This document shows, in pieces, positions 1-64,000 of a stretch of 64,000 nt of DNA; the stretch's first letter is position 1, and each line of letters begins with the position of its first letter. The stretch is from NCBI RefSeq assembly GCF_001424645.1, contig NZ_LMQR01000002.1, positions 124,179-188,178 of the forward strand, given 5' to 3'. Below the pieces are notes generated by a model, which worked only from the letters and a program-made list of their open reading frames with translations, was not told the DNA's origin and did no database searches. The DNA is from Frigoribacterium sp. Leaf415 (GTDB taxonomy: Bacteria; Actinomycetota; Actinomycetes; Actinomycetales; Microbacteriaceae). Position numbers and translations under genes: made by a program.

Positions 1-1416
1 GCCGAGCTCCGCGCGGCCGACCCGGTCGCGGGCGGGGAGCAGTCGACCGGCGGCGACGCCGGGACCGACACCGCGCCTCCTGCACGCAGCGAGATGACCG
101 ACGAGGTCCTCGCGGTGTTCCGCACGATCGCCGACCTGCAGAAGCGCTACGGCGTGCGGGCCGCGTCGCGCTACATCGTGTCGTTCACGCAGTCGTCGGC
201 CGACCTCGCCAACGTGTACGAACTCGCCGAGCGCGCGATGGGCGACGAGCCCGCGCCCGTGCTCGACGTGATCCCGCTGTTCGAGACGTTCGCCGACCTC
301 GAGGCCAGCACGCGCATCCTCGACGAGGCCCTGCAGACCGAGGCGGTGCAGAAGCGCCTCGCGGCGACCGGCCGCCGCCTCGAGGTCATGCTGGGCTACT
401 CGGACTCGTCGAAGGACGTCGGGCCCGTCTCGGCCACCTTCGCGCTCTACGCCGCCCAGGCCCGCATCGCCGACTGGGCCGCCGAGAACGACATCGAGCT
501 GACGCTGTTCCACGGTCGCGGCGGCGCCCTCGGCCGCGGTGGCGGACCGGCCAACGAAGCCGTGCTGGCCCAGCCGCCGGCCTCGGTCGACGGCCGCTTC
601 AAGATCACGGAGCAGGGCGAGGTCATCTTCGCCCAGTACGGCAACAAGACCATCGCCGCCCGTCACGTCGAGCAGATGGCGGCGGCCACGCTGCTGGCGT
701 CGAGCCCGTCGAACGAGGAGGCCAACGCGACCGCCGCCACCCGGTTCGCCGAGGTCGCCTCGACGATGGACGTCGCCTCGCGTGAGGCGTTCTTCGGCCT
801 GGTCAAGGCCGACGGCTTCGCGTCGTGGTTCGCCGCCGTCACCCCGATGGAAGAGGTCGGGCTGCTCGCGCTCGGGTCACGTCCCGCCCGTCGGGGGCTC
901 TCGGTCGAGTCCCTCGAAGACCTCCGGGCGATCCCGTGGGTCTTCGCCTGGACCCAGGCCCGCATCAACCTCGCCGGCTGGTACGGCCTCGGCTCGGCCC
1001 TCGAGGCCGTGGGCGACCTCGACCTGCTGCGTGAGGCCTACGCGACCTGGCCGCTCTTCTCGGCGATGATCAAGAACGTCGAGATGTCGCTCGCCAAGAC
1101 CGACGAGCACATCGCCCGCGAGTACCTGGCGCTGGCCGACCGCGACGACCTCGCCGGACGCGTGCTCGACGAGATGACCCGCACGCGGAAGTGGGTGCTC
1201 GCGGTCAGCGGCCACGGCGAGGTGCTCGACGGACGCCCGGTGCTGAGCCGCGCGGTGCGGCTCCGCTCGCCCTACGTCGACGCACTCTCGCTGCTGCAGC
1301 TGCGCGCCCTGCGGGCGATCCGCGTCGCGGGCGGTGGTGACCCGGCGGACGCCGACCACCGCCTCCTGCTGCTCAGCGTCAACGGGATCGCCGCCGGGCT
1401 GCAGAACACCGGCTGA
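1..1416 (+). CDS. ppc: Phosphoenolpyruvate carboxylase, C-terminal half (5' truncated by window)
   Basis: The reading frame is open from base 1, so the start lies outside the window; 471 residues are visible against roughly 880-930 in the family. The enzyme carboxylates phosphoenolpyruvate with bicarbonate to oxaloacetate, refilling the TCA cycle in the cytoplasm. Diagnostic motifs are present in order: SRYIVSFTQSSADL (about residue 54), the catalytic MLGYSDSSKD (about 127), the glycine-rich phosphate-binding FHGRGGALGRGGGP (about 170), QARINLAGWYG, and the invariant C-terminal QNTG, which in this family reaches into the active site. A strong hairpin follows 17 bp after the stop. The visible region contains one copy of the CCGCGCCTCC word (71-80). 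Identification is by family motifs and is secure; allosteric regulation cannot be judged. Confidence 0.97.
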   Translation, partial: AELRAADPVAGGEQSTGGDAGTDTAPPARSEMTDEVLAVFRTIADLQKRYGVRAASRYIVSFTQSSADLANVYELAERAMGDEPAPVLDVIPLFETFADLEASTRILDEALQTEAVQKRLAATGRRLEVMLGYSDSSKDVGPVSATFALYAAQARIADWAAENDIELTLFHGRGGALGRGGGPANEAVLAQPPASVDGRFKITEQGEVIFAQYGNKTIAARHVEQMAAATLLASSPSNEEANATAATRFAEVASTMDVASREAFFGLVKADGFASWFAAVTPMEEVGLLALGSRPARRGLSVESLEDLRAIPWVFAWTQARINLAGWYGLGSALEAVGDLDLLREAYATWPLFSAMIKNVEMSLAKTDEHIAREYLALADRDDLAGRVLDEMTRTRKWVLAVSGHGEVLDGRPVLSRAVRLRSPYVDALSLLQLRALRAIRVAGGGDPADADHRLLLLSVNGIAAGLQNTG

Positions 1417-1432
1417 GCCGCGGCGTCACATG

Positions 1433-1485
1433 GGACGCAGGAGGCGCGGGCTGGGTCGTCGACCCGGCCCGCGCCTCCTGCGTCC
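1433..1485. terminator. Hairpin between convergent ppc and SDR genes
   Basis: A 19-bp perfect stem (1433-1451 with 1467-1485) encloses a loop that is itself partly self-complementary. Each arm contains one copy of the GGAGGCGCGGG word, in inverted orientation. It lies between the convergent stops of ppc and the SDR gene, so it probably ends transcription from both sides. No T-tract follows, as is usual for such GC-rich hairpins in actinobacteria. Confidence 0.75.
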
Positions 1486-2569: not shown

Positions 2570-2724
2570 GTGCCGATCCCGACCGGCGCCGCGCCTCCTT
2601 GCTGTGCCGTTCCCGACCGGCACTGCACCTCCCGGCGTGCCGAACCCGACAGAAGCCCGCCGACACACCGCTCACCGTGCCGCGGAACCGGGTTCGTCGG
2701 ACGCGGTGGTCGCGAAGTGCACAC
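2570..2724 (-). repeat. Composite element copy 1: 88-bp core plus 33-bp repeats
   Basis: Read on the minus strand, the core starts with GTGTGCACTTCGCGAC (2724 to 2709), carries GAGCGGTGTGTCGG, and ends with GTCGGGTTCGGCAC (2650 to 2637), which is an imperfect inverted copy of the start. The end unit is then repeated with a period of 33-34 bp (unit starts 2637, 2604, 2570). The core is 88 bp, the same as in the three other copies. It fills most of the 268-bp gap between the ferredoxin and SDR genes. Confidence 0.8.
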
Positions 2725-3072: not shown

Positions 3073-4475
3073 CGCCGTCCCTCCCATCCGGTCGGCGTCG
3101 TCGGTGGGACGGGGGCCGAGGGAACACCGGTCGACGTGACTCCGGTCGATCGGACACCGGTCGACCGGACCCCGACGAGGCATCGACCCTCGAGGTGGCG
3201 CTGCACGTCGTCCGCGAAGACCTGCAGGGTGCTGAACACGAGCCGCGCCGTACCGTCGGGGTGGTGGCACGATCCGCGGCCGGTGACGAGCCCGGCCAAC
3301 CGGGTCACCTCGCCCGGCAACCAGGCCGCGCGGTCGCCCCGGGCGAGCCGCCCGAGCACGTCGGCCAGCCGCGGCAGACCGTTGAGGCACGGCCCGCACT
3401 GCCGCGCCGACTGGCCCGCCAGGTAGGTCGTGACCTCGGCCGCCGCGGCGAGCCCGCACCGGTCGGCGGACAGTGCCCAGACGATGCCGGCTCCCGGGGA
3501 GGCACCCCAGGGCTGCAGTGCCTCCCGCGTGAAGGGCAGGTCGAGTGCCTCGACCGGCAGCCAGACCCCGTGGAACCCGCCCACGAGCACCGCGCGCAGC
3601 CGCGACGTGTCGATGCCGGCGGCCTCGACGATGCGGCGCAGGCTCATGGTGCCGGTGACCTCGAGGACCCGACCCGCGCCTCCCGGGCTGCCGGCGGTCG
3701 CGAGGGGCGACCGTCCGTCCCCACCGCCGACGGTGACCAGGCGCGTGCCGGGCTCGGCGGGGGCGCCGACCGAGCGGAACCAGTCGACGCCGAAGCGTGC
3801 CAGCAAGGCGAGCTGGGCGAGGGTCTCGACGTTCTGGACCAGCGTCGGCCGGCCGTCGACCCCGCTCGAGGTCAGGCGCACGACCCGGTCGGAGGGCACC
3901 GCGGGCCGCCCCTCGATCGCGGCCACCGCGGCGCTCGCCTCCCCCGACAGGAAGGTCTCGGGCGCCTCGACCAGCGTCACGCCCGAGGCGTCGCCCCGCT
4001 CGCGGAGCGCGGCCTCGACCCCCGGCAGGAGGCGCGAGGTCGTGTACAGGACGGCCCTCGACGCCCCCACGGTCGCCGCCGCCAGCAGCAGTCCGTCGAT
4101 CACGAGGTGCGGTGCGTGCGCGAGCAGGGTCGCGTCCTTGCGGCTGAGCGGTTCGCCCTCGGCGCCGTTCGCGATGACCACGGCACGGTGGCGCCCTCGC
4201 GAGGCCGGGCCGCGACGGCCCTGCTGTTCGGCGCGGGCGGCCCCGAGCTTGCGCCAGGTGGCGAAATGGGCTCCGCCGCGGCCGTCGAGTCCGGCGTGCT
4301 GCAGGTCGGCGACGAGGTCGGGGCCGGCGTGCTCGAGCGGCAGAGGGCCGAACGTGTCGAGGTGGGTCGCGAACGACGCGTCGCGGGCGGCGAAGAGACG
4401 GCGGATGCCACTCGGGGCCGTGAGGCGCGGGCCTCCCGCCGGGGACGGGACGGGCGGTGGGGCGAGCGTGCTCAT
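3069..4475 (-). CDS. NuoF-like NADH dehydrogenase 51 kDa-family protein
   Basis: A 468-residue relative of the complex I flavoprotein NuoF. Visible family signatures are GLDGRGGAHFATWRKL (the Gly-rich NADH/FMN loop, about residues 60-75), VIANGAEGEPLSRKD, and NVETLAQLALL. The C-terminal iron-sulfur region reads GQSARQCGPC and later GRGSCHH, whereas NuoF has ESCGxCTPC plus a distant Cys; the first of the four cluster ligands is therefore Ala here, and the cluster may be absent or altered. The protein stands outside any nuo operon, between a ferredoxin and a haem-b membrane protein, joined to both by ATGA overlaps. It probably links NAD(P)H or ferredoxin to the membrane partner. The physiological reaction is not known to me. 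Confidence 0.85.
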   Translation of the reverse strand: MSTLAPPPVPSPAGGPRLTAPSGIRRLFAARDASFATHLDTFGPLPLEHAGPDLVADLQHAGLDGRGGAHFATWRKLGAARAEQQGRRGPASRGRHRAVVIANGAEGEPLSRKDATLLAHAPHLVIDGLLLAAATVGASRAVLYTTSRLLPGVEAALRERGDASGVTLVEAPETFLSGEASAAVAAIEGRPAVPSDRVVRLTSSGVDGRPTLVQNVETLAQLALLARFGVDWFRSVGAPAEPGTRLVTVGGGDGRSPLATAGSPGGAGRVLEVTGTMSLRRIVEAAGIDTSRLRAVLVGGFHGVWLPVEALDLPFTREALQPWGASPGAGIVWALSADRCGLAAAAEVTTYLAGQSARQCGPCLNGLPRLADVLGRLARGDRAAWLPGEVTRLAGLVTGRGSCHHPDGTARLVFSTLQVFADDVQRHLEGRCLVGVRSTGVRSTGVTSTGVPSAPVPPTTPTGWEGRR

Positions 4476-5095: not shown

Positions 5096-6147
5096 GAGCG
5101 GGTGCTCCCGCCGGTCTCGTCGGGCCGGTCGGTCTCGGCGGGCCGAGCGATCTCGGCGGACCGGTCGGTCTCGAGGGGCCAGCCGCCGGTCACGACGACC
5201 CGGCCCCGCGCGTCGACCAGGCGAGCCGGGGCACCGAGGGCCTCGAGCCAGGCGACGGCGCGCAGCCCCCGCACGACGGCGGCGGTGCTGAGCGTGTTCG
5301 CCCGCAGGCAGGCCGGCGCGGCGACGGTGACGCTGCGCCAGACCGGCGCGGCCGGCACGCCCCAACGCGGGTCGAGGATGTGGTGCACCGGCCGCCCGCC
5401 CGAGGTCCACCGCCGCTTCTGCGTGCTCGACGTGGCGAGGGCGTACCCGGCCGCGAGCTCGATCGTCGTGGCGGGATCGGTCGGCAGGTCCTGCACGACG
5501 ACGCCCCAGCTCGTCCGTCCGTCGGGGGCGGGCCCCGCCGTGGCGATGTCTCCGCCCAGCGAGACCAGCACGCCGACGCCGAGCTCGTCGGCGATCCGTC
5601 GGGCCGCGAGGTCGGCGGCGACGGCCTTGGCCGTGGCGCCGAGGTCGAGGCGGACGCCGGAGGGGACGGTGAGGACGCGACCCTCGAGGCGGACACGCGG
5701 CCAGACCGGCGCCCGACGCGGGCCGAGGGCGAGGGTGACCCCCTCCGCAACCGTGAGCGGCGCCGGGGTCGTCATCGCGCCTCCTGCGGGGGTGTCGGTG
5801 GAGGCCGTGCCCGTCGGGACGCCGCGGTCGTAGCCCAGCGCGACGAGATCGGCGCCGAGGGTCGGGTCGACGTCTCCGTCGGTGTCACGGGCGGCGGTCA
5901 GGGCGGCGTCGACGAGCCCGGCGAGCATCGCGCTCACCTCGACCCCGCCGACGAGGGCCGGACCGAGCAGGCTCAGCTCGGAGTCGTCGCGGAACCGGCT
6001 GCAGGCCCGCTCGACCTCGTCGGTCACGTCGCCGACGACGGCCGCGGCCTCGGTGAGGAGGCGCGGGTCGGCGACCACGAGACGGGCGGCGGTCGTCCAC
6101 AGGGTCCAGTCACGGACGCCGGGCAGGGTGGTGATCGTCGTCGACAT
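5092..6147 (-). CDS. apbE: FAD:protein FMN transferase (ApbE family)
   Basis: A 351-residue ApbE-family protein. It would hydrolyse FAD and attach FMN covalently to a Ser/Thr of a target protein. Family motifs seen: ERACSRFRDDSELSLL (about 46-61), DGDVDPTLGADLVALGYDRG (about 88-107), LDLGATAKAVAADLAARRI, VLVSLGGDIATAG, and the C-terminal HHILDPRWG and ANTLSTAAVV that hold the metal and FAD. No clear signal peptide is visible, unlike many exported ApbE proteins. ATGA overlap with the membrane protein downstream; only 2 bp separate it from the S/T/G-rich gene upstream. No protein with an obvious FMN_bind domain is encoded in the operon, so the flavinylation target is unknown. Confidence 0.92.
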   Translation of the reverse strand: MSTTITTLPGVRDWTLWTTAARLVVADPRLLTEAAAVVGDVTDEVERACSRFRDDSELSLLGPALVGGVEVSAMLAGLVDAALTAARDTDGDVDPTLGADLVALGYDRGVPTGTASTDTPAGGAMTTPAPLTVAEGVTLALGPRRAPVWPRVRLEGRVLTVPSGVRLDLGATAKAVAADLAARRIADELGVGVLVSLGGDIATAGPAPDGRTSWGVVVQDLPTDPATTIELAAGYALATSSTQKRRWTSGGRPVHHILDPRWGVPAAPVWRSVTVAAPACLRANTLSTAAVVRGLRAVAWLEALGAPARLVDARGRVVVTGGWPLETDRSAEIARPAETDRPDETGGSTRS

Positions 6148-6149
6148 GA

Positions 6150-6554: not shown

Positions 6555-6694
6555 GGTGGCCTCCTCGGGATGATGGGCTCAACCATCGCTCCTGAGGCTT
6601 GCTCGTTCCCATGCGCTTCCCCTGAGGGGGCTTTGCGTCCTGGGCCGGCCCTGCTCCGCTCGTCGGTGCGCCGACCGGCACCGCGCCTCCTCAC

Positions 6695-7606: not shown

Positions 7607-7756
7607 GAGGCCCCCTCTGCGCGATCGCGCGGACTGTCGGTGCGGTCGCACCGGTCACACCCGAGGAGGCGCGGGTCGCGCCCCCGAGATCGCTCCGAGT
7701 CTACGGGTGCCCCGCCCCCGGCACCGGCCCGGGGCACGACCCGGTCGACGACGCGG

Positions 7757-8191: not shown

Positions 8192-8312
8192 GCCGTCCTG
8201 TCTACGCCCGGTGCGCGGCGCGGGTGACGCGACCCGCGCCTCCTCGGCCCGCCCCGGGCGGCGGATGCCGCGCGGACGGCGCGCGGACCGCGCGGACGGG
8301 CCTCACGACGAC

Positions 8313-8389: not shown

Positions 8390-9475
8390 CTAGCGGTCGG
8401 CGTGCTGCAGCGTCGGGTAGTCGGTGTAGCCCTCGGCGCCGTCCGCGTAGAACGTCGCGGGGTTCGGCTCGTTGACCTCGTGGTCGCCCTGCCAACGCTC
8501 GACCAGGTCGGGATTGGCGATGGCGAAGCGGCCCACGGCGACGGCGTCGGCCTGGCCGTCCGCTACCTCGGCGATGGCCTCGTCGCGCGTGGTGATCTGG
8601 CCGAAGCCGCTGTTGGCGATGAAGGCGCCGCCGAAGCGGGTCCGCAGGTCCTGCACGAGCTCGCCGCGCAGGTCGGCCTGCAGCACGCTGAGGTAGGCGA
8701 GGCCGAGCGGGGCGAGGCCCTCGACGACCGCGCGGTAGACGGCGGTCACGTCGGCGACGTCGGTCTCGACGACGTCCTGGATGTTGTGCATGGGAGACAG
8801 GCGGATGCCGACGCGGCCGGCGCCGATCGCGTCGGCCACGGCGGTCGCGGTCTCGATCGCGAGGCGGGCACGGTTCTCAGGGGTTCCGCCGTACTCGTCG
8901 GTGCGGACGTTCGAGACGGGCGAGAGGAACTCGTGCAGCAGGTAGCCGTTGGCGCTGTGGATCTCGACGCCGTCGAGTCCGGCCTCGAGCACGGCGCGCT
9001 TCGACGCGGCGACGATGTCGGCCGTGACCTGGTGCACCTCATCGGTGGTGAGGGCGTGCGGCACGGGGAAGTCGACCTTGCCGGCCGAGGTGTGCACCTG
9101 ACCGTCGATGGCGATCGCGCTGGGGCCGACGATGCGGTCGGTGCGGGTGATGTCGGTGTGCGAGACGCGGCCGCCGTGCATGACCTGCATGACGATCTGG
9201 CCGCCCTCGGCGTGGACGGCGTCGGCGACGCGCTTCCAGCCGGCGACCTGCTCGTCGGTGACGATGCCGGGCTGGCCGTCGTAGGCCTTGGACTCCTGCG
9301 AGGGGTAGGTGCCCTCCGTCGTGATCAGACCGAAGGAGGCGCGCTGCCGGTAGTGCTCCACCACGACGTCGCCGGGAACGCCGTCGTCGCCGGAGCGCAG
9401 ACGGGTGAGGGGCGCCATGACGACGCGGTTGCGCAGCTCGAGCTGGCCGAAGGTGGCGGGAGAGAAGAGGTCCAA
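8390..9475 (-). CDS. Old yellow enzyme family alkene reductase
   Basis: A 361-residue FMN-dependent NAD(P)H oxidoreductase that reduces activated C=C bonds. The N-terminus DLFSPATFGQLELRNRVVMA, the HGGRVSH segment, and the active-site EIHSANGYLLHEFLSP are seen; the His, Asn (+3) and Tyr (+5) of HSANGY match the substrate-anchoring and proton-donor residues of the family. NxRxDxYGG appears as NVRTDEYGG. The C-terminal VGRFAIANPDLVER binds the FMN phosphate. The homologous N-terminus fits a TTG start at 9475 with GGAAGG upstream; the longer frame has a poor, Arg-rich leader. Monocistronic, with a palindrome on each side. Confidence 0.93.
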   Translation of the reverse strand: MDLFSPATFGQLELRNRVVMAPLTRLRSGDDGVPGDVVVEHYRQRASFGLITTEGTYPSQESKAYDGQPGIVTDEQVAGWKRVADAVHAEGGQIVMQVMHGGRVSHTDITRTDRIVGPSAIAIDGQVHTSAGKVDFPVPHALTTDEVHQVTADIVAASKRAVLEAGLDGVEIHSANGYLLHEFLSPVSNVRTDEYGGTPENRARLAIETATAVADAIGAGRVGIRLSPMHNIQDVVETDVADVTAVYRAVVEGLAPLGLAYLSVLQADLRGELVQDLRTRFGGAFIANSGFGQITTRDEAIAEVADGQADAVAVGRFAIANPDLVERWQGDHEVNEPNPATFYADGAEGYTDYPTLQHADR

Positions 9476-53412: not shown

Positions 53413-55578
53413 CTACGCCTGCACGCCCGCGAGCTCGTCGATCAGGCGGTCGCCCGAGCGGGCCTCGATCATCTCGGCGTCGATCTCGGCGCGGTCGAGC
53501 AGCTCTTCCATGCGACGGCGGCGCTGGCGCGTGATGAGCGTGACGACGGTGCCCTCCTTGCCGGCGCGGCCGGTGCGGCCTGAGCGGTGCATGTAGGTCT
53601 TGTACTCGTCGGGCATGTCGGCCTGGACGACGAGCTCGATGTCGTCGACGTGGATGCCGCGGGCGGCGACGTCGGTGGCGACGAGCACGTTGACCTTGCC
53701 GCTGGTGAGCAGCTGCAGGTTGCGCGTGCGGCGGGCCTGGTTCAGGTCGCCGTGCAGGCTCGTCGAGCGGATGCCGGCGTCCTCGAGCTGGTCGGCGAGC
53801 TGCTCGGCGAAGGCGCGGGTGCGGGCGAAGACCAGGGTCTTGCCACCGCCCGAGGCGAGCTGCTCGATGACCGCGGTCTTGTCGCGCTGCTCGATCAGCA
53901 GCACGCGGTGGTCGATCGTGGCGCTGGCCTGGTCCTCGCCGGCGACCTCGTGCACGGCCGGGTCGACCAGGAACTCGTCGACGAGCTTCGCCACGCCCTT
54001 GTCGAGGGTCGCGCTGAAGAGCAGCTTCTGGGCGCGGGCGCCGTCCGGGCGGACCGTGGCGGTCTCGCGGATGATGCGCTGCACCGGCTCGAGGAACCCG
54101 AGGTCGCACATGTGGTCGGCCTCGTCGAGCACGGTCACGACGACCTCGCTGAGGTCGAGACGACCCTGGTCGATGAGGTCCTCGATGCGGCCGGGGGTGC
54201 CGATCACGATGTCGACGCCGCGGTTGAGCGCACCGACCTGACGCTGCTGGGGCACGCCGCCGTAGACCTGCGTGGTGAACAGGCCGACCGAACGGGCGAT
54301 GGGCTGCACGGTGCGGTCGATCTGCATCGCGAGCTCACGGGTCGGGGCGAGGATCAGCGCGCGGGGCTTGCGGCCCATCTTGCGGTTCTTCGCGCCGTTG
54401 TTCTCCATCAGCTTCTCGACCAGCGGGGCGCCGAAGGCGATCGTCTTGCCCGAGCCCGTGCGGCCACGGCCGAGCACGTCGCGACCGGCGAGCACGTCGG
54501 GGATCGTCGCCGCCTGGATCGCGAACGGAGCCGCGGCACCCATCGAGGCCAGCTGGCGCTCGATGTTGTCACCGAGGCCCAGGTCGCCGAAGCTCACGCC
54601 CTCGACGTCGGCCGCGGTGACGACCTCGGCCTTGAGCTTCTCGAGCTTGACGTCGTCCTCGGGCGAGTAGTGCGTCGCCGCGTCGCGCTTCGGGTAGAAG
54701 TCGCTCGACCGGTCGCCGACACGGGCCGGGCGGTCGCCGCGGTCGTTGCGGTCGAAGCTGCGCGGGGCGCGGTCGTCACGAGCGGGGCGGTCGCTGCGGT
54801 CGAAGCTGCGTGCCGGGCGGGCGTCGCGGTCGAAACCACCGGAGGCGCGGCCACCGCGCTCGGGACGGTCACCGTACGAGCGCTGGGGGCGGTCGTCACG
54901 CGAGCGGTCGTCACGGGCCGGACGGGCGTCGCGGTCGTACGAACGCGGGGCGCGGTCGTCGCGAGCCGGGCGGTCGCTGCGGTCGTAGCTGCGGGGAGCG
55001 CGGTCGTCGCGAGCCGGGCGGTCGGAGCGGTCGTACGAACGGGGAGCACGATCGTCACGGGCCGGACGGTCGGAGCGGTCGTAGCTGCGAGGGCCGCGGT
55101 CGTCGCTGCGGGGGGCGCGGTCGTCGCGGGCGGGGCGGTCCGAACGGTCCCACGAGCGGGGTCCGCGGTCGGAGCCACGGGCGGCGTCGCGGCCACCGTC
55201 ACGGCCGTATCCCCGGGCGGCCTCACGGCCACCGTCGCGGCCGAAACGGGGCGCCGCGTCGCGGCCACGCTCGCCGTTGCGGCTGTCGAAGTCGCGGTTG
55301 CCGAAGCGGTTGCCACCGGCCGGCTTCTCGCGGGGCTCCCAGTTGGGGCGACGGTCCTCGGAACGGGCGGCGCCGGGGGCACGGTTGCCACCGCCGTCGC
55401 GGGTGCCGAACTCGCGGCGTCCGCGGTCGGCACGCTCGCTGGCGTCCCAGCGCTTCTTGGCGGCCGGGGCTCCGACCTCGTCGGCGCGGTGGCCGCGGTG
55501 CTTGGGGCTCTTCGATCCGGCCTTGGGTGCACCACCGGTGCGGTCGGTGCGCGGGCGTGAGTTGTCGTAAGGAGACAT
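53413..55578 (-). CDS. DEAD-box RNA helicase with long disordered N-terminal region
   Basis: A 721-residue helicase. The RecA-like core begins near residue 326: Q-motif region GVSFGDLGLGDNI...FAIQAATIP, GRTGSGKT (Walker A), PTRELAMQI, TPGRIEDL, LDEADHM, SAT, VFARTRAFAEQL, ATDVAARGIHVDDI and HRSGRTGRAG. In most bacterial relatives (RhlE/CsdA) a basic tail follows the core; here the core is at the C-terminus and about 320 residues of Arg/Asp/Gly-rich repeats come first, with a 16-residue unit SYDRSDRPARDDRAPR repeated near residues 150-230. Such regions bind RNA and can drive phase separation. Start ATG 55578 with GGAAAG upstream; a structured leader precedes it. Confidence 0.94.
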   Translation of the reverse strand: MSPYDNSRPRTDRTGGAPKAGSKSPKHRGHRADEVGAPAAKKRWDASERADRGRREFGTRDGGGNRAPGAARSEDRRPNWEPREKPAGGNRFGNRDFDSRNGERGRDAAPRFGRDGGREAARGYGRDGGRDAARGSDRGPRSWDRSDRPARDDRAPRSDDRGPRSYDRSDRPARDDRAPRSYDRSDRPARDDRAPRSYDRSDRPARDDRAPRSYDRDARPARDDRSRDDRPQRSYGDRPERGGRASGGFDRDARPARSFDRSDRPARDDRAPRSFDRNDRGDRPARVGDRSSDFYPKRDAATHYSPEDDVKLEKLKAEVVTAADVEGVSFGDLGLGDNIERQLASMGAAAPFAIQAATIPDVLAGRDVLGRGRTGSGKTIAFGAPLVEKLMENNGAKNRKMGRKPRALILAPTRELAMQIDRTVQPIARSVGLFTTQVYGGVPQQRQVGALNRGVDIVIGTPGRIEDLIDQGRLDLSEVVVTVLDEADHMCDLGFLEPVQRIIRETATVRPDGARAQKLLFSATLDKGVAKLVDEFLVDPAVHEVAGEDQASATIDHRVLLIEQRDKTAVIEQLASGGGKTLVFARTRAFAEQLADQLEDAGIRSTSLHGDLNQARRTRNLQLLTSGKVNVLVATDVAARGIHVDDIELVVQADMPDEYKTYMHRSGRTGRAGKEGTVVTLITRQRRRRMEELLDRAEIDAEMIEARSGDRLIDELAGVQA

Positions 55579-56037: not shown

Positions 56038-59000
56038 TCACACCCGGGTGGCAGCCTGCTCGGCAGCCTCCGCCGCCCGCCGGTCGGCCCGACGTTCGCC
56101 GATGCGCTCGAACAGGTAGTAGATGACCGGCAAGACCACGAGCGTCAGCAGGGTGGACGACACGAGCCCGCCGATGACGACGATGGCGAGTGGCTGCGAG
56201 ATGAAGCCGCCGTGCCCGGTCACGCCGAGCGCCATCGGGGTGAGCGCGAAGATCGTGGCCGCCGCCGTCATGAGGATCGGCCGCAACCGGCGCGACGCCC
56301 CCTCGAGCAGGGCCTCGCGCACCCTCAGCCCCTTCTCGCGGTACTGGTTGACCAGGTCGATCAGCACGATGGCGTTGGTCACGACGATGCCGACGAGCAT
56401 GAGCACGCCGATCAGCGACGCGACGCCGAGGGGCACGCCCGAGGCCAGCTGCAGCAGGATCGCCCCGGTCGCGGCGAACGGGATCGACACGAGCAGCAGC
56501 AACGGCTGGATCAGGCTGCGGAACGTCGCCACCATGACGATGTAGACGATCAGGATGGCGATCAGCACGGCGAGACCGAGCTGCGAGAACGCGTTGGCCT
56601 GGTCGGCCGTCGCCCCGCCGATCGTGGCGTCGGTGCCGTCGGGCAGCTCGACCGCGGCCACGGCGTCCGACACCTCGGTGCCCGCGGCCGAGAGGTCGTC
56701 GCCCGACGGCGTGATCGTCACGGTCGCCGAACGCACCGCGTCGGTCGTCGTGACCGAGGTCGGGCCGGTCGTCTGCTCGACCGTGGCGATGGAGTCGAGT
56801 CGCACGGGTCCGGTCGGGCTCGGCAGCTCGAGGGCCTTGAGCTCGTCGAGGGTCGCCGGCGGCGTCGGGTCGACCGTGTAGACGTCGACCGAGCTGTCGT
56901 CGATCTCGAGCGACCCCACCCGGAAGGGCTGGATCGCCTGCGACACGATGCCGCCCACGGCGACCTCGCTGTAGCCGAGCGCCGCGGCGGCGGCACGGTC
57001 GACCTGCACGCCGATGACCGGCTGGGCCGCCTGCAGGTTCGAGCTGGCCTCGGCGGTGCCGGGAAGTCCCTGCACCTTCTTCAGCACCGCATCCGTCGCG
57101 GTCTGCAGACTGTCGGGGTCGGGTGCCGTGACGTCGACGGTGATGTCGTTGCTCGTGCCGAACCCGCTCGACGCCGAGACCTCGATCTCGCCGGCATCGG
57201 TGACGTCGTCCAGCTGCGAGCGGACGTCGGCCTGCAGGGCGTCCTGGTCGGCGCTCTCGTCGGTCGTGATCGAGTAGGTGACCGTGCTGTCGCCCGAGCC
57301 GCCGAGGAAGCTCGCGATCGACGTGCCGCTCGAGCCGATGGTCAGCTGCACCGTCTCGATGCCGTCGACGCCCTCGAGCACCTGCTCGACCCGGTCGGCG
57401 GCGTCGGACTGCGTCTGCAGGCTCGACGCGGGCGGCAGGGTCTGCGTGACGGTGAACGTGTTCTGCCCGCTAGCCCCGAGGAAGTTCGTCTTCATGAAGG
57501 GGATGACGGCGCCCGTGCCCACCAGGATCAGCAGTGCCACGAGGATCGTCACGACCGGACGCTTCAGGGTGCCCCGCAGCACGGGGACGTAGGCGCGACG
57601 CAGGCGGTCGAGCGGCCGGGTGTCGGACGGGTCGGAGGCGCGGGTCGTCAACGACTCGGTCGTCGCCCCCTCGACGGCGGCGGCCTCGCCGCCCGGAGCG
57701 TGCTTGTGGGCCTTCGGCGCCCGGAGGAACCAGTAGGCCAGCACCGGCACGATCGTGAGCGCGACGAACAACGACGCGACGAGCGCGATGGTCACCGTCA
57801 GGGCGAACGGCCGGAACAGCTCGCCGGTGATGTTGCCGACGAACGCCAGCGGGAGGAACACCACGACGGTCGTGACCGTCGAGGCGGTGATGGCGCCCGC
57901 CACCTCGCGCACGCCGACCTTGATCGCCTCGAGCCGGTCGACGCCCGCGGTGAGGTGCCGCTTGATGTTCTCGATGACGACGATCGAGTCGTCGACCACG
58001 CGGCCGATGGCGATCGTCAACGCGCCCAGGGTCAGGATGTTGAGCGTGTAGTTCGCGGCCTGGAGCCCGATGAACGTGATCAGCACGCTCGTCGGGATGC
58101 TGATCGCCGTGACGATGGTCGACCGGATCGACAGCAGGAAGATCAGGATGACGATCACGGCGAACACGAGGCCGAGCAGCCCCTCTTCGGCGAGCGCGTC
58201 GATCGACTGCTGGATGAACGGCGCCTGGTCGAACACCACCGTGAGCTCCACGCCGTCACCCAGGTCGGAGGCGAGGCTCGGGATGGCGTCGCGGACGGTC
58301 TGCGAGACGTCGACGGTGTTGGCGTCGAGGGTCTTGGTGATGGCGACCGTCAGGGCGTCCTGCCCGTCGACCCGGCTGATCGAGGTGACAGGGGCACCGG
58401 TCAGCTGCACGTCGGCGACGTCGCCGATCGTGGCGGCCGAGGTGCCGCCGAGCAGCGGCAGGGCGCGGATCTCGTCGACGCTGGTGAGTCGTTGACCCGC
58501 CTGGATGGACAGGGTCTTGCCGTCCTGCGTGATGGTGCCGCCGGGGATGAGCGTGCCGTTGGCGTCGAGGGCGTCCTGGAAGGCGGCGGTCGTCAGCCCC
58601 GCGGCGGTGAGCGCCGTCTGGTCGGGCGAGATGGTGACGCGCTGGCCGGCGTCGCCGTAGATCGAGGCCTCGCGGACGCCGTCGAGCTTCTGCAGGTCGG
58701 GCACCGTGACGGTGGTCAGCCGGTCGACGAGGGCCTGCGAGTCCGCGGAGTCGTAGCCGGTGACGGCGATCTGGATGACCGGCAGGTCGTCGAGGCTGCC
58801 CGTGACGACCTGGGTGTCGACCGAGTCGGGCAGCGAGAGCCGGTTGATCGCCGACTGGATCTTCTGCTCGGCCGAGTCGAGGTCGGTGCCGTAGGTGAAC
58901 TCGGCCGAGACCGTGCTCTGCGAGGTGCTCGAGGTCGCCGAGGTGCCCTCGAGGCCGGGGATGATCTGGACGGCCTGCTCGATCGGGGTCGAGACGTCCT

Positions 59001-59184: not shown

Positions 59185-59213
59185 GGTGCTCCGGTGGTGA
59201 GAGGGAGAGCGGA

Positions 59214-59246
59214 GGAGGCGCGGTGAACGACGTGCACCGCGCCTCC
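59214..59246. terminator. Hairpin from an inverted GGAGGCGCGGTG pair
   Basis: Arms GGAGGCGCGGTG (59214-59225) and CACCGCGCCTCC (59235-59246), a perfect 12-bp stem. It lies between the stop of the MocR gene and the start of the RND gene on the same strand, so it probably ends the MocR transcript. Third inverted pair of the abundant word in this window. Confidence 0.75.
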
Positions 59247-59343
59247 ATTGTCACCAGCCTCTCTGGGAACTGGCGGCGCTTTCTTACACGCTGTGCAGAA
59301 CCCCGGCCGGTCGCCGAGGTGTGGACGAGCCGCCGTTCTCCCC

Positions 59344-60798
59344 TCAGACCACCTCGGCCAGCAGCGGCGAGGCCGGCACCTGCACCCCGTCGACCCCGTC
59401 CCACGCCGCGCGCAGGGCCGCGAGCGCGCGGTCGGTGTCGCTGTCGGCGTACGAGAACGGCACGCGCAGGAACCGCTCGAACGCCCCGTCGATGCCGAAC
59501 ACCGGACCGGCGGCGAGCAGCAGCCCCTCGCGGCGGGCGGCGAGGGTGAGCTGCGAGCTGACCGGCGCTCCGAGTCCGACCCAGGTGGTGAGCCCGCCCG
59601 CCGGCGACGGCACCTGCCAGGACGGGAACGCCTCGCGCAGGCCGTGGACGACGCGGTCGCGACCTCGTCTCAGGTGGCCGGCCCGCGCCTCCAGCACGCG
59701 GTCGAAGTCGCCGAGCAACTCGGCGACCACCAGCTGCTCGAGTACGGGCGTGCCCAGGTCGCCCGCCGAGCGGGCGCGCACGAGCCGGTCGACGAGCGGG
59801 CGTTCGGCGCGGATCCACCCGATGCGCAGGCCGCCCCAGAGCGACTTGCCGACCGAGCCGATCGTGACGGCCCGTCCGTACGCGGCCATCGGCAGGGGCC
59901 GCTCGACGCGCGAGCCCGGACCCACCCCGTCGATCGCCATCTCGGCCATGGTCTCGTCGGCGATCACCACGGTGCCCTCGTCCGCTGCCGCCTCGAGCAC
60001 CCGCACCCGCTGGTCGGCGGGCATCGTCGCGCCCGTGGGGTTGTGGAAGTCGGGCATCAGGTAGGCCACCGGCGGGCTGGTGCGACGCAGGGTCTGCATC
60101 AGTGCCGCTTCGTCCCAGCCGTCGTCGACGGTCACGCTGACCGGCACGAGGCGGGCGCCGGCCCCGCGGAGGGCCTCGAAGGCGTGCGGGTAGCCGGGCG
60201 CCTCGACGACGGCCCGGTCACCGCGCGAGACCAGCACGCGGGCGAGCAGCGCGATCGCGTGCTGCGCCCCGAGGGTGACGACGATCTGCTCGGCGCTCGT
60301 CTCGAGTCCGCGCCGTCGATACCGTTCGGCGACGGCCTCGCGCAGCACGGGCCGCCCGACCGGGTCGTAGCCCGGGTCGTCGAGGTAGGCCCCGAGCCGA
60401 CCCGCCGCCCGCTGGGCCGCCTCGGCGATGCCGTCGACCGCGGGCAGGGCCGCCTTCGTCAGGTCGAGCAGCCCCTCGGTCGTCGTCGGGCGCGGCACCG
60501 AGGCACGGGCCGGCAGGCGCACGACGCTGCCACTGCCACGCACGCTGTCGACGTGCCCCGAGTCGCGGAGGGCGGCATAGGCCGCGGCCACGGTCGTCCG
60601 GCTGACCCCGAGGTGCGCGCAGAGGTCACGTTCGGACGGCAGGCGCGTGCCGACCGGCAGCCGCCCGTCGAGCACGAGCAGGCGGATGCGGTCGGCGAGC
60701 GCCAGGTAGCCGGGAGCCGAGGAGGCGCGCCACGAGTCGAGCAGCACCCCGAGCGCTCGCGACGAGACGGTGGTGGCACCGTGGTCGAGGTTGGTCAC
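59344..60798 (-). CDS. MocR family regulator (YczR-like), GntR head with aminotransferase domain
   Basis: A 484-residue MocR protein. The winged helix (about residues 28-96, YLALADRIRLLVLDGRLPVGTRLPSERDLCAHLGVSRTTV) is followed by a type I aminotransferase fold with the PLP lysine Lys318 in TIGSVGKSLWGG, YLMPDFHNPTGATM and VIADETMAEM. It is divergent from a YczE-type membrane protein, the known pairing that defines YczR regulators. Such proteins bind PLP and a ligand but are usually not catalysts. GTG start follows TAGGGT by 6 nt. GATTGG repeats lie between the two genes. Confidence 0.92.
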   Translation of the reverse strand: MTNLDHGATTVSSRALGVLLDSWRASSAPGYLALADRIRLLVLDGRLPVGTRLPSERDLCAHLGVSRTTVAAAYAALRDSGHVDSVRGSGSVVRLPARASVPRPTTTEGLLDLTKAALPAVDGIAEAAQRAAGRLGAYLDDPGYDPVGRPVLREAVAERYRRRGLETSAEQIVVTLGAQHAIALLARVLVSRGDRAVVEAPGYPHAFEALRGAGARLVPVSVTVDDGWDEAALMQTLRRTSPPVAYLMPDFHNPTGATMPADQRVRVLEAAADEGTVVIADETMAEMAIDGVGPGSRVERPLPMAAYGRAVTIGSVGKSLWGGLRIGWIRAERPLVDRLVRARSAGDLGTPVLEQLVVAELLGDFDRVLEARAGHLRRGRDRVVHGLREAFPSWQVPSPAGGLTTWVGLGAPVSSQLTLAARREGLLLAAGPVFGIDGAFERFLRVPFSYADSDTDRALAALRAAWDGVDGVQVPASPLLAEVV

Positions 60799-60860: not shown

Positions 60861-61487
60861 ATGCTCCTCTCGCGTCGCCTGCTGCAGTTGTTCGTCGGCC
60901 TCACCGCCTACGGCTTCGCCATCGCCGTCATGATCCGCGCCGGCATCGGCGTCGCCCCCTGGGACGTGCTCTCGCAGGGGCTCGTCCGGCACACCGGGCT
61001 GACGTTCGGCACCGTCACGTTCGTCACGAGCTTGGTCGTGCTGCTGCTCTGGATACCCCTGCGCCAGCGCCCCCGCTTCGGCACGATCGCCAACACGCTG
61101 ATGATCGGCCCGGTCGCCGACCTCGGCCTGCGCGTGCTGCCGCAACAGACCGAGTGGTGGGCGCAGGGCCTGACCTTCGCGGGTGGTCTGCTGTTGCTCG
61201 CCGTCGCGAGCGGCCTCTACATCGGGGCCGACTTCGGGCCGGGCCCGCGTGACGGTCTCATGCTCGGCCTGCACGCCCGACTGGGTTGGCGGGTGGGCGT
61301 CGCCCGCACCGTCATCGAGCTCACGGTCCTGGCCGCGGGCTGGCTGCTCGGCGGCCAGGTCGGCATCGGCACGGCCGCCGAGGCTCTGCTGATCGGCCCG
61401 CTCGTGGCGATCACGTTGCCGCTCTTCGCCCGGCGCCGGGTGGCGACCTCCGTCGTGGTCCCGGCCCGCGCCTCCTCACCCGCCTGA
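60861..61487 (+). CDS. YczE family membrane protein
   Basis: A 208-residue membrane protein with about five to six hydrophobic segments. LLQLFVGLTAYGFAIAVMIRAGIGVAPWDVL, SGLYIGADFGPGPRDGLMLGL and GQVGIGTAAEALLIGPLV are the conserved YczE loops, with Gly/Pro-rich half-helices. The function of YczE/YitT-like proteins is not settled; transport of a small molecule linked to vitamin B6 or amino acids has been suggested by the MocR association. It is divergent from that regulator. The tail carries one reverse GGAGGCGCGG word. Confidence 0.87.
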   Translation: MLLSRRLLQLFVGLTAYGFAIAVMIRAGIGVAPWDVLSQGLVRHTGLTFGTVTFVTSLVVLLLWIPLRQRPRFGTIANTLMIGPVADLGLRVLPQQTEWWAQGLTFAGGLLLLAVASGLYIGADFGPGPRDGLMLGLHARLGWRVGVARTVIELTVLAAGWLLGGQVGIGTAAEALLIGPLVAITLPLFARRRVATSVVVPARASSPA

Positions 61488-61591: not shown

Positions 61592-63877
61592 GTGACCAAC
61601 GACACCCGGTCGCCGAAGCGTTGGCTGATCGGTGAACCCCTGCCCTCGGAGAAGCTCGAGGGGCAGCTGCTGCCGAAGCACCTCGCACTGCCGATCTTCG
61701 CCAGCGACCCGCTCAGCTCGGTGGCCTACGCGCCGCAAGAACTGCTGATGATCCTGCTGATCGGCGGCCTCGGGTTCCTCACGCTCGCGCCGTGGGTCGC
61801 CGTCGCGGTGGTCGTCCTGCTGCTGGTCGTGGTCGCCTCGTACCGCCAGTTGATCAAGGCGTACCCGTCGGGCGGCGGCGACTACGAGGTCGCCCACAAG
61901 AACCTCGGCGAGAAGGCCGGGCTCGTGGTCGCCTCGGCGCTGCTCGTCGACTACGTCATGACCGTGGCCGTGTCGGTCGCCTCGGGCGTCGACAACATCA
62001 TCTCGGCCGTGCCCGAACTGGCACCGGTGCGGGTCGAGCTCGCCGTCTTCTTCGTCGTCCTGCTGGCGGCCGTCAACCTGCGCGGCGTGCGCGAGTCGAG
62101 CAAGGCCTTCGCGATCCCCACCTACCTCTTCGTGTCGAGCGTCTTCGTCATGATCGTGATCGCCCTCGTGCGCACCGCTCTCGGCGACCCGCCCGTCGCC
62201 GAGAGCGCCGACTACACGGTGCAGGCCGACCAGCTCACGCAGGCGGCGTTCATCCTGCTGCTGCTGCGCGCGTTCTCGAGCGGGTGCTCGGCCCTGACCG
62301 GCGTCGAGGCCATCGCGAACGGCGTGCCCGCGTTCCGCCGCCCGAAGGTGCAGAACGCCCAGAAGACCCTCGTGCTGATGGGCAGCATCGCCATCGTCCT
62401 GTTCGCCGGCCTCGTCGCCGTCGCCCTGATCGCGAAGGTGCACTACGCCGAGAACGCCTGCGACCTGCAAGGGTTCGTCGACTGTGCCACCACGCCGCAG
62501 CGCAGCCTGATCGCGCAGATCGCGAGCGCGGTGTTCGGCGGGGCCCTGTTCGGCATCCCGTTCTACGTGATCCAGGCCTGCACGGCGGCGGTGCTACTGC
62601 TGGCGGCGAACACGGCGTTCAACGGGTTCCCGCTGCTCGGTTCGATCCTGGCCCGCGACCAGTACGCCCCCAAGGCCCTCAACACGCGCGGCGACCGACT
62701 GATCTACTCGAACGGCGTGATCGTGCTGGCGCTGGTGGCCTGCGCCATCCTGCTCGTGTACCAGGCCAGCGTCACGGGGCTCATCCAGCTGTACATCATC
62801 GGCGTCTTCGTGTCGTTCACGCTCGGTCAGACCGGCATGGTCGTGCACTGGACCCGCATGCTGCGCGAGGGCTGCGCCGACCGGGGTGCCGTGTACCGGG
62901 CTCGCGGCATCAACGCGTTCGGTGCCCTGCTGACCGCGTCGGTGCTCATCGTCGTGACGGTGACCAAGTTCACGCACGGCGCCTGGCTCGTGTTCGTCAT
63001 CATGCCGATCCTGTTCGTGCTGATGCTCGGCGTGAACCGCTACTACCGCGACGTGCTGGTCGAGATCGAACCCGATGCCACGACGCAGTTCGGCTCGCAC
63101 GGCGACCACGCCATCGTGCTGGTCGGCACGATGCAGAAGCCCGTGTTGAAGGCCCTCGACTACGCCATCGCCGCGCGGCACGAGTCGCTCGAGGCGATCC
63201 ACGTGGGCATCGACGACGAGGCCACTGCGCTGCTGCAACGCCAGTGGGCCGAGCAGGACATCGAGGTGCCGCTGCGCATCGTCGCCTCGCCGTACCGCGA
63301 CATCAGCATGCCGCTGATCAAGTACATCAAGGCCCACCGCGAAGAGCACGGCAGCGAGGTCGTGACGGTCTACACGCCGATCTACATCGTCGGCCACTGG
63401 TGGGAGGCCGCGCTGCACAACCACAAGAGCCGCCGCATCCGTCAGAAGCTCATGCTCGTGCACGGCGTGACGATCTCGCTCGTGCCGTGGCTGCTCGACT
63501 CGTCCGAGGTGCTCTACGGGCGTCGTTCGCGGCCGATCCCCGGCCAGGACCGCCGTGGCGAGCCCATCCGCCCCCGCCCGGTGCCGCGCCGCGTGCTCGA
63601 ACCCGCCGGTCGCCGATCCGGTGCCGCCGGAGGCGCTCTGGGCGCCGACGCGGGCCCCGACGGCCGCGCCGGAGCAGCTCTCGAAGGAGGCGCGATGCAA
63701 CGAGGCCTGGACGTCCAGCCCGCGCAGACCGGCTCGGCCGGCTCGAAGCCCGGACCGAAGCAGACCCCGCGCGCACCGGGTTCGGCCACGGGCAATCGCG
63801 GAGGTGGCGCCGCCGCCCGCAAGGCCCGCTCGGCCGCCCGCAACTCGACCGGCACCTCCCCCCGCAAGAAGAAGTAG
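61592..63877 (+). CDS. KimA-like APC family potassium transporter
   Basis: A 761-residue protein with about twelve hydrophobic segments (about 30-460) of the APC fold, followed by a cytoplasmic domain (about 475-640) with a nucleotide-binding-like ATP/UspA fold (DHAIVLVGTMQKPVLKALDYAIA) and a basic, Gly/Pro-rich tail (about 650-761, ending in SPRKKK). The start LLPKHLALPIFASDPLSSVAYAPQELL is typical of the KimA branch, which in Bacillus imports potassium with protons and is controlled by cyclic di-AMP. Whether the same ligand acts here is inference. GTG 61592 is chosen over the upstream TTG because that TTG is the -35 box. A ribosome site and in-frame ATG (63695) lie within the tail. Confidence 0.88.
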   Translation: MTNDTRSPKRWLIGEPLPSEKLEGQLLPKHLALPIFASDPLSSVAYAPQELLMILLIGGLGFLTLAPWVAVAVVVLLLVVVASYRQLIKAYPSGGGDYEVAHKNLGEKAGLVVASALLVDYVMTVAVSVASGVDNIISAVPELAPVRVELAVFFVVLLAAVNLRGVRESSKAFAIPTYLFVSSVFVMIVIALVRTALGDPPVAESADYTVQADQLTQAAFILLLLRAFSSGCSALTGVEAIANGVPAFRRPKVQNAQKTLVLMGSIAIVLFAGLVAVALIAKVHYAENACDLQGFVDCATTPQRSLIAQIASAVFGGALFGIPFYVIQACTAAVLLLAANTAFNGFPLLGSILARDQYAPKALNTRGDRLIYSNGVIVLALVACAILLVYQASVTGLIQLYIIGVFVSFTLGQTGMVVHWTRMLREGCADRGAVYRARGINAFGALLTASVLIVVTVTKFTHGAWLVFVIMPILFVLMLGVNRYYRDVLVEIEPDATTQFGSHGDHAIVLVGTMQKPVLKALDYAIAARHESLEAIHVGIDDEATALLQRQWAEQDIEVPLRIVASPYRDISMPLIKYIKAHREEHGSEVVTVYTPIYIVGHWWEAALHNHKSRRIRQKLMLVHGVTISLVPWLLDSSEVLYGRRSRPIPGQDRRGEPIRPRPVPRRVLEPAGRRSGAAGGALGADAGPDGRAGAALEGGAMQRGLDVQPAQTGSAGSKPGPKQTPRAPGSATGNRGGGAAARKARSAARNSTGTSPRKKK

Positions 63878-63894
63878 CCGCACCTCGGGGCGCC

Positions 63895-64000
63895 TCAGCG
63901 CCAGATCGTGTGCGGCCGTAGCAGGCGGTGCCGCGGCTCGCTGTCGTCGAGCAGCAGCGACAGCACGGCCCCCGCGACCTCGACGAGCGGCTGCTCGACG
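63895..64000 (-). CDS. C-terminus of a possible LacI-type regulator (truncated by window)
   Basis: On the minus strand a frame is open from the window edge to TGA at 63895-63897, giving 34 residues (VEQPLVEVAGAVLSLLLDD ... LRPHTIWR). The QPL.E...A...LL pattern followed by a short linker and a beta strand looks like the end of a LacI/GalR ligand-binding domain. The piece is short, so the assignment is tentative. Convergent with the KimA-like gene, 17 bp apart. Confidence 0.5.
   Translation of the reverse strand, partial: VEQPLVEVAGAVLSLLLDDSEPRHRLLRPHTIWR

Follow-up and report, generated by a model that had tools for sequence, protein, structure and literature searches.

The nine-base word GGAGGCGCG, which recurs on both strands of the window (the whole stretch of 64,000 nucleotides analysed here), is probably a DNA uptake sequence of the source genus, that is, a self-tag that would raise the uptake of DNA from like cells, and a probability of about 0.72 is assigned to this reading. 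The initial annotation had proposed the same from the density of the word, its presence in genes and its inverted pairs, and the sequence tests described below support the proposal and point to a role in uptake. On nearly every one of these tests the word resembles the uptake sequences of Neisseriaceae (DUS) and Pasteurellaceae (USS). To our knowledge, uptake sequences have so far been known from two Gram-negative families, and sequence-specific uptake from Gram-negative bacteria only. The open-access literature searched contained no uptake or transformation data for the group and, in agreement with the initial annotation, no description of uptake sequences in actinobacteria.

An exact search of the window revealed 69 copies of GGAGGCGCG, 35 on the plus and 34 on the minus strand; the excess originally noted is therefore real, although the figure of about 60 copies was too low, and most of the 24 example positions were correct, although some lay a few bases off (20206 corrected to 20198, and 43000 to 42995). 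Exact matches on the plus strand are located at positions 1440..1448, 4028..4036, 6057..6065, 7665..7673, 9335..9343, 10284..10292, 12637..12645, 12646..12654, 16160..16168, 17100..17108, 17134..17142, 20198..20206, 23567..23575, 26740..26748, 30758..30766, 32503..32511, 33977..33985, 36822..36830, 38431..38439, 38455..38463, 39550..39558, 41815..41823, 42278..42286, 42995..43003, 43710..43718, 45022..45030, 47664..47672, 49337..49345, 51801..51809, 53381..53389, 54841..54849, 57634..57642, 59214..59222, 60721..60729 and 63686..63694. Those on the minus strand are located at 72..80, 1470..1478, 2590..2598, 3675..3683, 5776..5784, 6682..6690, 8235..8243, 11108..11116, 16133..16141, 21113..21121, 23590..23598, 23777..23785, 24851..24859, 30098..30106, 30120..30128, 30142..30150, 31429..31437, 33695..33703, 35792..35800, 36980..36988, 39698..39706, 40357..40365, 42216..42224, 42563..42571, 45977..45985, 46589..46597, 47796..47804, 49365..49373, 50458..50466, 51224..51232, 53261..53269, 59238..59246, 59684..59692 and 61467..61475. 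The tenth base is present in 53 copies of the window, and GAGGAGGCGCGG accounts for 21. Independent bases predict 5.5 copies, matching the approximately five estimated earlier from base composition, and Markov models of orders 1-4 predict 2.4-6.9; under the order 3 model, no other 9-mer in the window is as strongly over-represented as GGAGGCGCG, and its extensions head the 10-mer ranking. The expectation rises to 8.9, 28 and 57 at orders 5, 6 and 7, which were rejected as null models because they hold pieces of GGAGGCGCG itself.

The same excess was found genome-wide. The source genome (3.42 Mb) contains 2,305 copies (1,157 plus and 1,148 minus), corresponding to a chromosomal density of approximately 0.7 per kb, versus 102 copies (53 and 49, respectively) of the reversed word, which served as the whole-genome control. 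Markov expectations beyond the window were derived from a 464-kb sample of this genome, which reaches 2.43 of the 3.14 Mb of contig 1 and in which two of the 20 stretches were picked on account of comEC and type IV pilus genes. The sample harbors 317 copies versus 16-18 expected at orders 2-4 (49, 121 and 240 at orders 5, 6 and 7, respectively), so the word exceeds both the reversed control and the low-order expectation by about 20-fold. Synonymous-codon shuffling of 386 genes (60 shuffles) yielded 36.9 copies (sd 5.9, maximum 49) versus 175 observed, which rules out a codon artefact as the source of the excess. All six frame and orientation classes lay above the shuffled maximum (RAS 57, GGA 37, xEAR 31 and the rest 50), consistent with the earlier observation that copies occupy several coding frames with no protein motif behind them. 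Spacing between sites is near random, with a coefficient of variation (CV) of 0.98 over 253 gaps.

The fuller form of the word is A-GGAGGCGCGG-[GT][GT]C-[GC]GG. Its core is strict: AGGAGGCGCGG occurred 168 times and single changes within the eight bases GGAGGCGC left 0-3 copies each, the outer bases being more tolerant of change. Flanking information lies chiefly 3' of the word, also for copies in genes, and the similarity of the flanks is lost within approximately 18 bp, so that GGAGGCGCG is not one repeat family, a possibility considered at the outset. The word is not its own complement, i.e. it is non-palindromic.

Gene calls, including start codons, are predictions of this analysis, and with them the density of GGAGGCGCG is approximately five times higher between genes (2.14 per kb) than in genes (0.44 per kb). 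Convergent gaps carry 4.12 sites per kb, tandem gaps 2.98 and divergent gaps 0.97, the sites thus being concentrated at the 3' ends of genes. Within genes, the reverse complement is more frequent than the forward word (102 vs 73, p 0.03), the choice of the strand called 'the word' being a convention. Among genes of 450 bases or more, the reverse word is skewed towards the 5' fifth, as reckoned from the predicted start codons (34 of 100, p 0.009), and the location bias of the forward word was not significant (p 0.63). One local observation counts against an uptake sequence: a 20-kb stretch with ruvABC, secDF and alaS (genes named by eye) has just two sites, whereas genome-maintenance genes are enriched in uptake sequences according to work cited in the available text of PMC2346458.

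Close pairs of sites are frequent, with 43 pairs less than 80 bp apart, 19 of them head-to-head. Seventeen head-to-head (+/-) neighbours lie within less than 60 bp, and the spacing is exactly 28 bp in nine of these. Five hand-picked pairs are predicted to fold with z values of -4.8 to -9.8, and these include the three inverted pairs originally singled out as hairpins, which lie at gene ends according to our own gene calls. The terminator-like predicted hairpin at 1433..1485 (sites 1440+ and 1470-; MFE -62 and z -9.8 when folded as 1430-1490) and that at 23560..23605 (23567+ and 23590-; MFE -39.1, z -6.4) are both situated between convergent genes. The third, at 59207..59255 (59214+ and 59238-; MFE -28.2, z -4.8), lies downstream of a tandemly arranged gene, 59344-60798 on the minus strand, at its 3' end.

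Comparison with related genomes, to which the initial annotation had pointed, revealed that the word is restricted to its genus. All 16 genomes of the source genus that were examined contain the 10-mer, in 513-1,570 copies, the highest number being that of the source genome. In a family sample of 85 genera, some genomes of which measure 0.9-1.8 Mb, the 11-mer was counted 383-1,239 times in seven of seven genus members and at most 78 times in the 292 other family genomes (in G092, with a control count of 27; the next highest value was 45). Within the genus, single sites turn over while site density is kept; G015 (helicase same as in G013) and G021 were set aside from this comparison, and G019 gave no aligned site. 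The RecQ-like helicase, so named from its sequence, showed 73% identity to Streptomyces and 71% to Clavibacter, which does not discriminate between families. Prophages are poor in the word, with 10 sites in 141 kb around five portal genes versus 62 expected at the source-genome genic rate, and a single site in 91.8 kb of prophage cores, whose borders were set by eye with the sites in view, versus 40 expected at that rate. Both expectations are somewhat too high because the prophage hosts hold 730-1,342 copies of the 10-mer, fewer than the source genome. All ten prophage proteins tested match phage families, and three of the five prophages have a lower GC content (0.59-0.63).

Other genera of the family possess related words, based on GGATGC and GGATCC, some of them weak; the search covered words occurring in at least three stretches per genome. 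In Microbacterium mitrae, CGGAACCACG has 829 copies versus 3. The candidate dialect words are AGGAGGCGCGG for the source genus, CGGAACCACGG for M. mitrae and CGGATGCCTCG for another genus, and similar words occur in Microbacterium and Agromyces loci. Fetched stretches from word-rich genomes carry sites on both strands. Two observations count against the uptake reading: the GGATGC word has little or no intergenic enrichment in the majority of the sister genera covered (ratios 0.2-2.8, with a relaxed training rule for gene calling in the lower-GC genomes), and at the hexamer level GGAGGC ranks only third among the sixteen GGANNC words of the source genome. The related words as a whole suggest, without settling it, that kindred 'dialects' of the frame GGANNC are in use among sister genera, recalling the situation in Neisseriaceae.

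Several other explanations of such a word were weighed. The copies could form a genome-wide mark that is read by an intracellular DNA-binding protein, either as a nucleoid organiser or as a self/non-self defence mark, and is selected with no role in uptake. The strict core, the restriction to one genus and the scarcity in prophages fit any self mark, and the distribution of the com genes does not follow that of the word; such a mark does not, however, predict the 28-bp hairpin pairing at gene ends, the intragenic orientation and 5' lean of known uptake sequences, or the run of related words across sister genera, and is considered unlikely. Chi, KOPS and HIP1 are likewise genome-wide short words of similar number, and the first two are replichore-polarised (approximately 75% for E. 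coli Chi, and higher for KOPS). A recombination hotspot resembling Chi, or a segregation signal resembling KOPS, would suit the copy number, the length and the G-rich core of GGAGGCGCG, but the sites cluster between genes, at 3' ends, and strand polarity is absent: 20 of 21 places, each with at least five sites (the remaining one had two), were within chance of 50:50 (chi2 14.2, 20 df, p 0.82). Confinement to one orientation, named earlier as a sign of such roles, was thus not borne out, and we regard them as very improbable. Even less credit is given to a HIP1-like, highly iterated word associated with a methyltransferase, or to a mutational or codon artefact. Either would be expected to give many copies in both orientations, inside genes as well as between them, but methyltransferase sites are usually shorter than a strict eight-base core with a flank on one side, and a 5- to 20-fold excess is left after codon shuffling and low-order Markov modelling; HIP1 itself is a palindrome (PMC4390886, in its available text), and GGAGGCGCG is not. 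Finally, a chiefly transcription-terminating element would agree with the close pairs, their predicted folds and the site-rich convergent gaps, but hardly with inverted pairs in only 15 of 261 gaps longer than 20 bp or with 175 of 317 copies lying inside genes, and is the least plausible explanation.

The uptake-sequence reading calls for a machinery, and comEA, comEC and pilus genes, among the genes to which the initial annotation had drawn attention, are indeed present. A comEC gene was found in all 16 genus members, and the source genome encodes a comEA-like protein, identified by Pfam, in a comEA-comEC pair. TadA-type ATPases were assigned by score class in 16 of 16 genus members, with Tad context observed in two; one was observed in the source genome. 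The Tad/Flp-type locus has the order tadA-tadB/C-flp-tadE-(tadF), its prepilin carries a G/XXXXEY site, and its fifth gene has no Pfam match. Since comEC and TadA-type genes also occur in family members without the GGAGGCGCG word, gene content alone fails to predict it. Of the 16 genus members, 13 encode a PilB-type ATPase (E 1e-138 or better). The other three (G002, G003 and G005) form one clade in a single-protein tree (98/98) and have kept 1,204-1,492 copies of AGGAGGCGCG. Outside the genus, this ATPase is also lacking in M. mitrae and G116, and is present in G090, G077, G117, G128 and M. jejuense, all with GGATGC words or CGGATGCCTC copies. Because three of the 16 word-bearing genus members have no PilB-type ATPase, the type IV pilus is disfavoured as the uptake machine, the Tad system is the likelier one, and type IV pilins are an unlikely receptor.

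The following sequence of events would account for these data. Copies of the word are distributed along the chromosome and are scarce in newly arrived DNA. A competence protein of the surface or envelope would bind the word on double-stranded DNA, the likeliest being ComEA or one of the minor pilins of the Tad/Flp pilus, and the pilus together with ComEA and ComEC, the genes for which were observed, would import the DNA, as in Micrococcus luteus. The favoured fragments would recombine and, together with drive or selection, this might then sustain the site density despite the observed turnover, and paired sites at gene ends may have been co-opted as terminators, as their predicted hairpins suggest. 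The broader proposal, that GGANNC dialects serve in uptake family-wide, are read by a Tad/Flp rather than a type IV pilus and mean that uptake sequences have originated independently a third time, is given even odds. If true, an actinobacterial uptake sequence would have arisen independently, a Tad-type pilus or ComEA would be able to read DNA sequence, and the choice of gene-exchange partners within the group would be explained in part. The old question of why uptake sequences evolve could also be put to the test in a third lineage, one that has several dialects.

The uptake sequences of Pasteurellaceae have a short strict core, a weaker flank and hairpin pairs. All these features are shared by GGAGGCGCG, which is, unlike them, GC-rich and of unrelated sequence. 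In most Pasteurellaceae studied, according to the available text of PMC2346458, the reverse uptake word is the commoner one in genes and leans to the 5' end, as does that of GGAGGCGCG, whereas the forward word leans to the 3' end, a lean for which GGAGGCGCG gave no significant signal; a type IV minor pilin has been proposed as the receptor (PMC12616744, available portion). The DUS of Neisseriaceae, as portrayed in the accessible part of PMC3630211, is a short non-palindromic word of high copy number, common between genes, with terminator-linked inverted pairs and dialects around a fixed CTG core. GGAGGCGCG is similarly short, non-palindromic, abundant, rich between genes and inverted in pairs, with related dialects suggested, and differs in its sequence, its actinobacterial host and its persistence in genus members devoid of a PilB-type ATPase; the receptor of the DUS is ComP. 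Finally, Micrococcus luteus, the transformation of which requires tad genes, shares with the source genome the order of the Tad locus, the comEA-comEC pair and the G/XXXXEY prepilin, and differs in needing two tad loci, versus the one TadA-type ATPase observed here, as well as in respect of the fifth gene, for which the source genome gave no match; the term 'uptake sequence' occurs 0 times in the available text describing that system (PMC4322843).

The 9-mer GGAGGCGCG is present in 69 exact copies in the window (35 on the forward and 34 on the reverse strand), where Markov models of orders 1-4 predict 2.4 to 6.9, and the word and its extensions top the list of over-represented 9-mers and 10-mers. 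The frequent recurrence described in the initial annotation is thus borne out, and it extends genome-wide: the 3,423,183 bases (4 contigs, with the window at C2:124179-188178) of Frigoribacterium sp. Leaf415 contain 1,157 and 1,148 copies on the two strands, compared with 53 and 49 for the word read backwards (the reversed control). The form of the word was analyzed in a pooled sample of 464 kb, in which the window was joined by twenty stretches of 20 kb each, all lying within the initial 2.43 Mb of contig 1. The 11-mer AGGAGGCGCGG occurs 168 times there. Single-base variants of the eight-base core GGAGGCGC number only 0 to 3 copies each at any position, whereas the outer positions of the 11-mer are more tolerant, with the first A replaced by C, G or T in 33, 27 and 7 copies, the tenth base present as T in 21, and the last base as A, C or T in 16, 17 and 9. 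In 106 unpaired intergenic sites, A is preferred at -1 (75%) and G at +9 (85%), followed by T or G at +11 and C at +12 (73%); positions +13 to +15 prefer G (53-64%), and +16 prefers T or C. This gives the extended consensus A-GGAGGCGCGG-[GT][GT]C-[GC]GG. The same preference, although weaker, is visible in 175 genic sites and is therefore not due to hairpins.

With gene borders taken from our own codon-usage predictions, 175 of the 317 pooled copies lie in genes (397.6 kb, 0.44/kb) and 142 outside them (66.4 kb, 2.14/kb), a contrast that is lowered because genes cut at stretch ends were counted as intergenic. Site density is 4.12/kb in convergent, 2.98/kb in tandem and 0.97/kb in divergent gaps; of the 261 gaps exceeding 20 bp in length, 91 contain at least one site, and an inverted pair is present in 15. 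Seventeen head-to-head (+/-) neighbours lie less than 60 bp apart, nine of them with a spacing of exactly 28 bp. Five hand-picked examples, including the three inverted pairs of the window that had been proposed as hairpins, gave fold z-scores of -4.8 to -9.8, in agreement with that proposal, with predicted stems of 19 pairs (28-bp example) and 18 pairs (27-bp example). The genic copies occupy all six frame/orientation classes, as the several frames noted earlier had indicated, and their excess persists against synonymous-codon shuffling within 386 genes (175 copies observed; 60 shuffles gave 36.9, sd 5.9, and never more than 49). A Chi- or KOPS-like role would predict a preference for one strand within every 20-kb place, a test for which the position of the replication origin is not required. 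In the 20 of 21 places with at least five sites, deviation from 50:50 was no more than chance (chi2 14.2, 20 df, p 0.82), and the orientation bias that the initial annotation had named as grounds for abandoning the uptake reading was not found. The lowest count among the sampled places, 2 sites in 20 kb, belongs to stretch L052 (G000:C1:1080001-1100000), whose genes resemble ruvABC, secDF and alaS; elsewhere, uptake sequences are reported to be rich in repair genes.

Comparison with related genomes, suggested at the outset, showed the word to be abundant throughout the genus and scarce in other relatives. The 10-mer form AGGAGGCGCG reaches 513 to 1,570 copies per genome in all 16 genus members, compared with 0 to 61 (in most cases close to the reversed count) in the 44 non-genus relatives (21 of the family Microbacteriaceae and 23 of the order) among the 60 searched; the largest excesses outside the genus were 52 versus 14 reversed (G023), 61 versus 30 (G055) and 34 versus 14 (G058). 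Likewise, among 299 family genomes, AGGAGGCGCGG has 383 to 1,239 copies in all seven genus members and at most 78 in the other 292 (G092, control 27), followed by 45 (G195, control 64). A tree of one helicase divides the genus into two clades that share the same word, which is absent from both outgroup stretches around the helicase gene. In a 24-kb part of the window with 23 sites, 72 of 81 aligned site comparisons with five members of the same clade were identical (other 9-mers, 38-64%), with 6 to 8 sites unaligned per genome. When nine genomes of the other clade were compared, identity fell to 16 of 59 (27%; other 9-mers, 18-22%), a figure based on few sites; 13 to 20 of the 23 did not align per genome. 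Nevertheless, the region surrounding that helicase gene carries 9 to 20 copies in the other clade, and 17 to 22 in the clade of Leaf415. Single sites are thus replaceable while density is conserved.

Foreign DNA is poor in the word. When the 16 genus genomes were searched for portal proteins, five portal genes were detected, spread over four genomes, and none in Leaf415 itself. In the 141 kb around these genes, all ten tested proteins have matches in phage families (head, terminase, tail, single-strand binding). The entire 141 kb contains 10 sites (reversed word, 3) and the 91.8-kb prophage core, whose borders were drawn by hand with site positions in view, only 1 (reversed word, 3), where the genic rate of Leaf415 predicts 62 and 40, respectively, expectations that are somewhat high given 10-mer counts of 730 to 1,342 in the prophage hosts versus 1,570. 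Composition is not the whole reason for this scarcity, since two prophages with a GC content of 0.68-0.70 also have 1 site in 42.1 kb.

A search for competence genes was likewise positive. The Leaf415 genome carries comEC behind a comEA-like gene whose product has SLBB and helix-hairpin-helix domains, and also a Tad/Flp-type locus and a type IV pilus cluster. The Tad/Flp-type locus consists of a T2SSE ATPase, a T2SSF protein, a DUF4244 prepilin with a G/XXXXEY site, a TadE-like protein and a fifth small gene with no Pfam match. The pilus cluster (L062:435-12289), with PilB- and PilT-type ATPases and several N-methyl pilins identified by Pfam and the rest by eye, adjoins rpoBC and topA (also named by eye). 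All 16 genus members possess comEC and, by score class, a TadA-type ATPase (locus context checked for Leaf415 and G002); both genes also occur in relatives lacking the word. A PilB-type ATPase was found in 13 of the 16; the three without it form one clade in a single-protein tree, with 10-mer counts of 1,204 to 1,492. Since this ATPase is missing from three word carriers, and since Micrococcus luteus, according to PMC4322843, needs for transformation its tad genes, whose order is shared by the Leaf415 locus, we favour a putative uptake machine composed of a Tad pilus with ComEA/ComEC. At L051:8617-12102, comEC and a DNA polymerase III delta C-terminal domain share one 1,161-codon ORF with no stop between them, either a fusion or a frame artefact.

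Related words were found elsewhere in the family. Ten other genera, chosen for contig size (two, G019 and G021, had been looked at beforehand), were sampled at 80 kb each, and in every one the top over-represented 8-mer includes GGANNC on one of its strands, as GGATGC in nine genera and as GGATCC in the tenth. Words based on GGATGC are top or near top in stretches of Microbacterium (L085, L086), Agromyces (L098) and genomes G016-G018, G021-G024, G086, G114 and G116, and may be weaker dialects of the same system. Named 22-kb loci of Microbacterium, M. mitrae and Agromyces contain such words and that of Leifsonia does not; the GGANNC pattern was not seen in five genomes from outside the family but within the order, in Streptomyces, in other actinobacteria or in Burkholderiales. 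One of 15 strand tests was weakly off (G018, p 0.02). Three words are strong: GGAGGCGCG, CGGATGCCTC and CGGAACCACG. CGGATGCCTC has 1,196 copies in G116 (2 reversed) and is raised in other genera (G090, 462; G094, 347; G077, 308; G089, 263). CGGAACCACG has 413 + 416 = 829 copies in Microbacterium mitrae (genome G331, locus L087; 1 + 2 reversed), no more than 33 in any of 120 family genomes and no more than 25 in 11 other named genomes. In 22 kb of M. mitrae, the 8-mer CGGAACCA occurs at 4.5/kb between genes (2.9 kb) and 0.85/kb within them, part of these copies forming one local cluster. CGGAACCACG, which by eye shares N-GGA-NNC-N-CGG with the window's word, is a second strong candidate uptake-like word, in a named organism. 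Confidence in a family-wide reading is lower than for the genus: GGATGC words show little or no enrichment between genes in most sampled genera, and the bare hexamer GGAGGC ranks third among GGANNC in Leaf415, at 1.44 times expectation. Separately, G045, from another family of the order (L227-L230), has 71 copies of GCATCGGC versus 16 expected in 80 kb, with no strand bias; this may be another genome-wide word.

Taken on sequence and gene content, the word probably works like an uptake sequence, at a probability of roughly 0.7. The claim that none is described in actinobacteria agrees with our search of the open-access literature (with few subscription journals or preprints), which found none for actinobacteria (judged by title), Actinomycetota or Microbacterium. 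In open-access searches, the matches listed for Curtobacterium, Microbacteriaceae and Clavibacter included no 'uptake sequence', nothing relevant was found on Curtobacterium natural transformation or competence, and those listed for GGAGGCGCG as a text string were unrelated by title. The listed features of uptake sequences that can be read from sequence and gene content were all found, apart from position bias in genes, for which the evidence is mixed. Within genes, the reverse complement outnumbers the forward word (102 versus 73, p 0.03) and prefers the first fifth (34/100, p 0.009), as in most Pasteurellaceae studied in PMC2346458; unlike the forward word there, which leans 3', GGAGGCGCG has no preference across gene fifths (19, 13, 13, 11, 15; p 0.63). 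The Tad/Flp-type locus resembles that of M. luteus in gene order, and the set of related words in Microbacteriaceae genera is reminiscent of the eight dialects of Neisseriaceae, which, according to PMC3630211, are built on a fixed CTG core.
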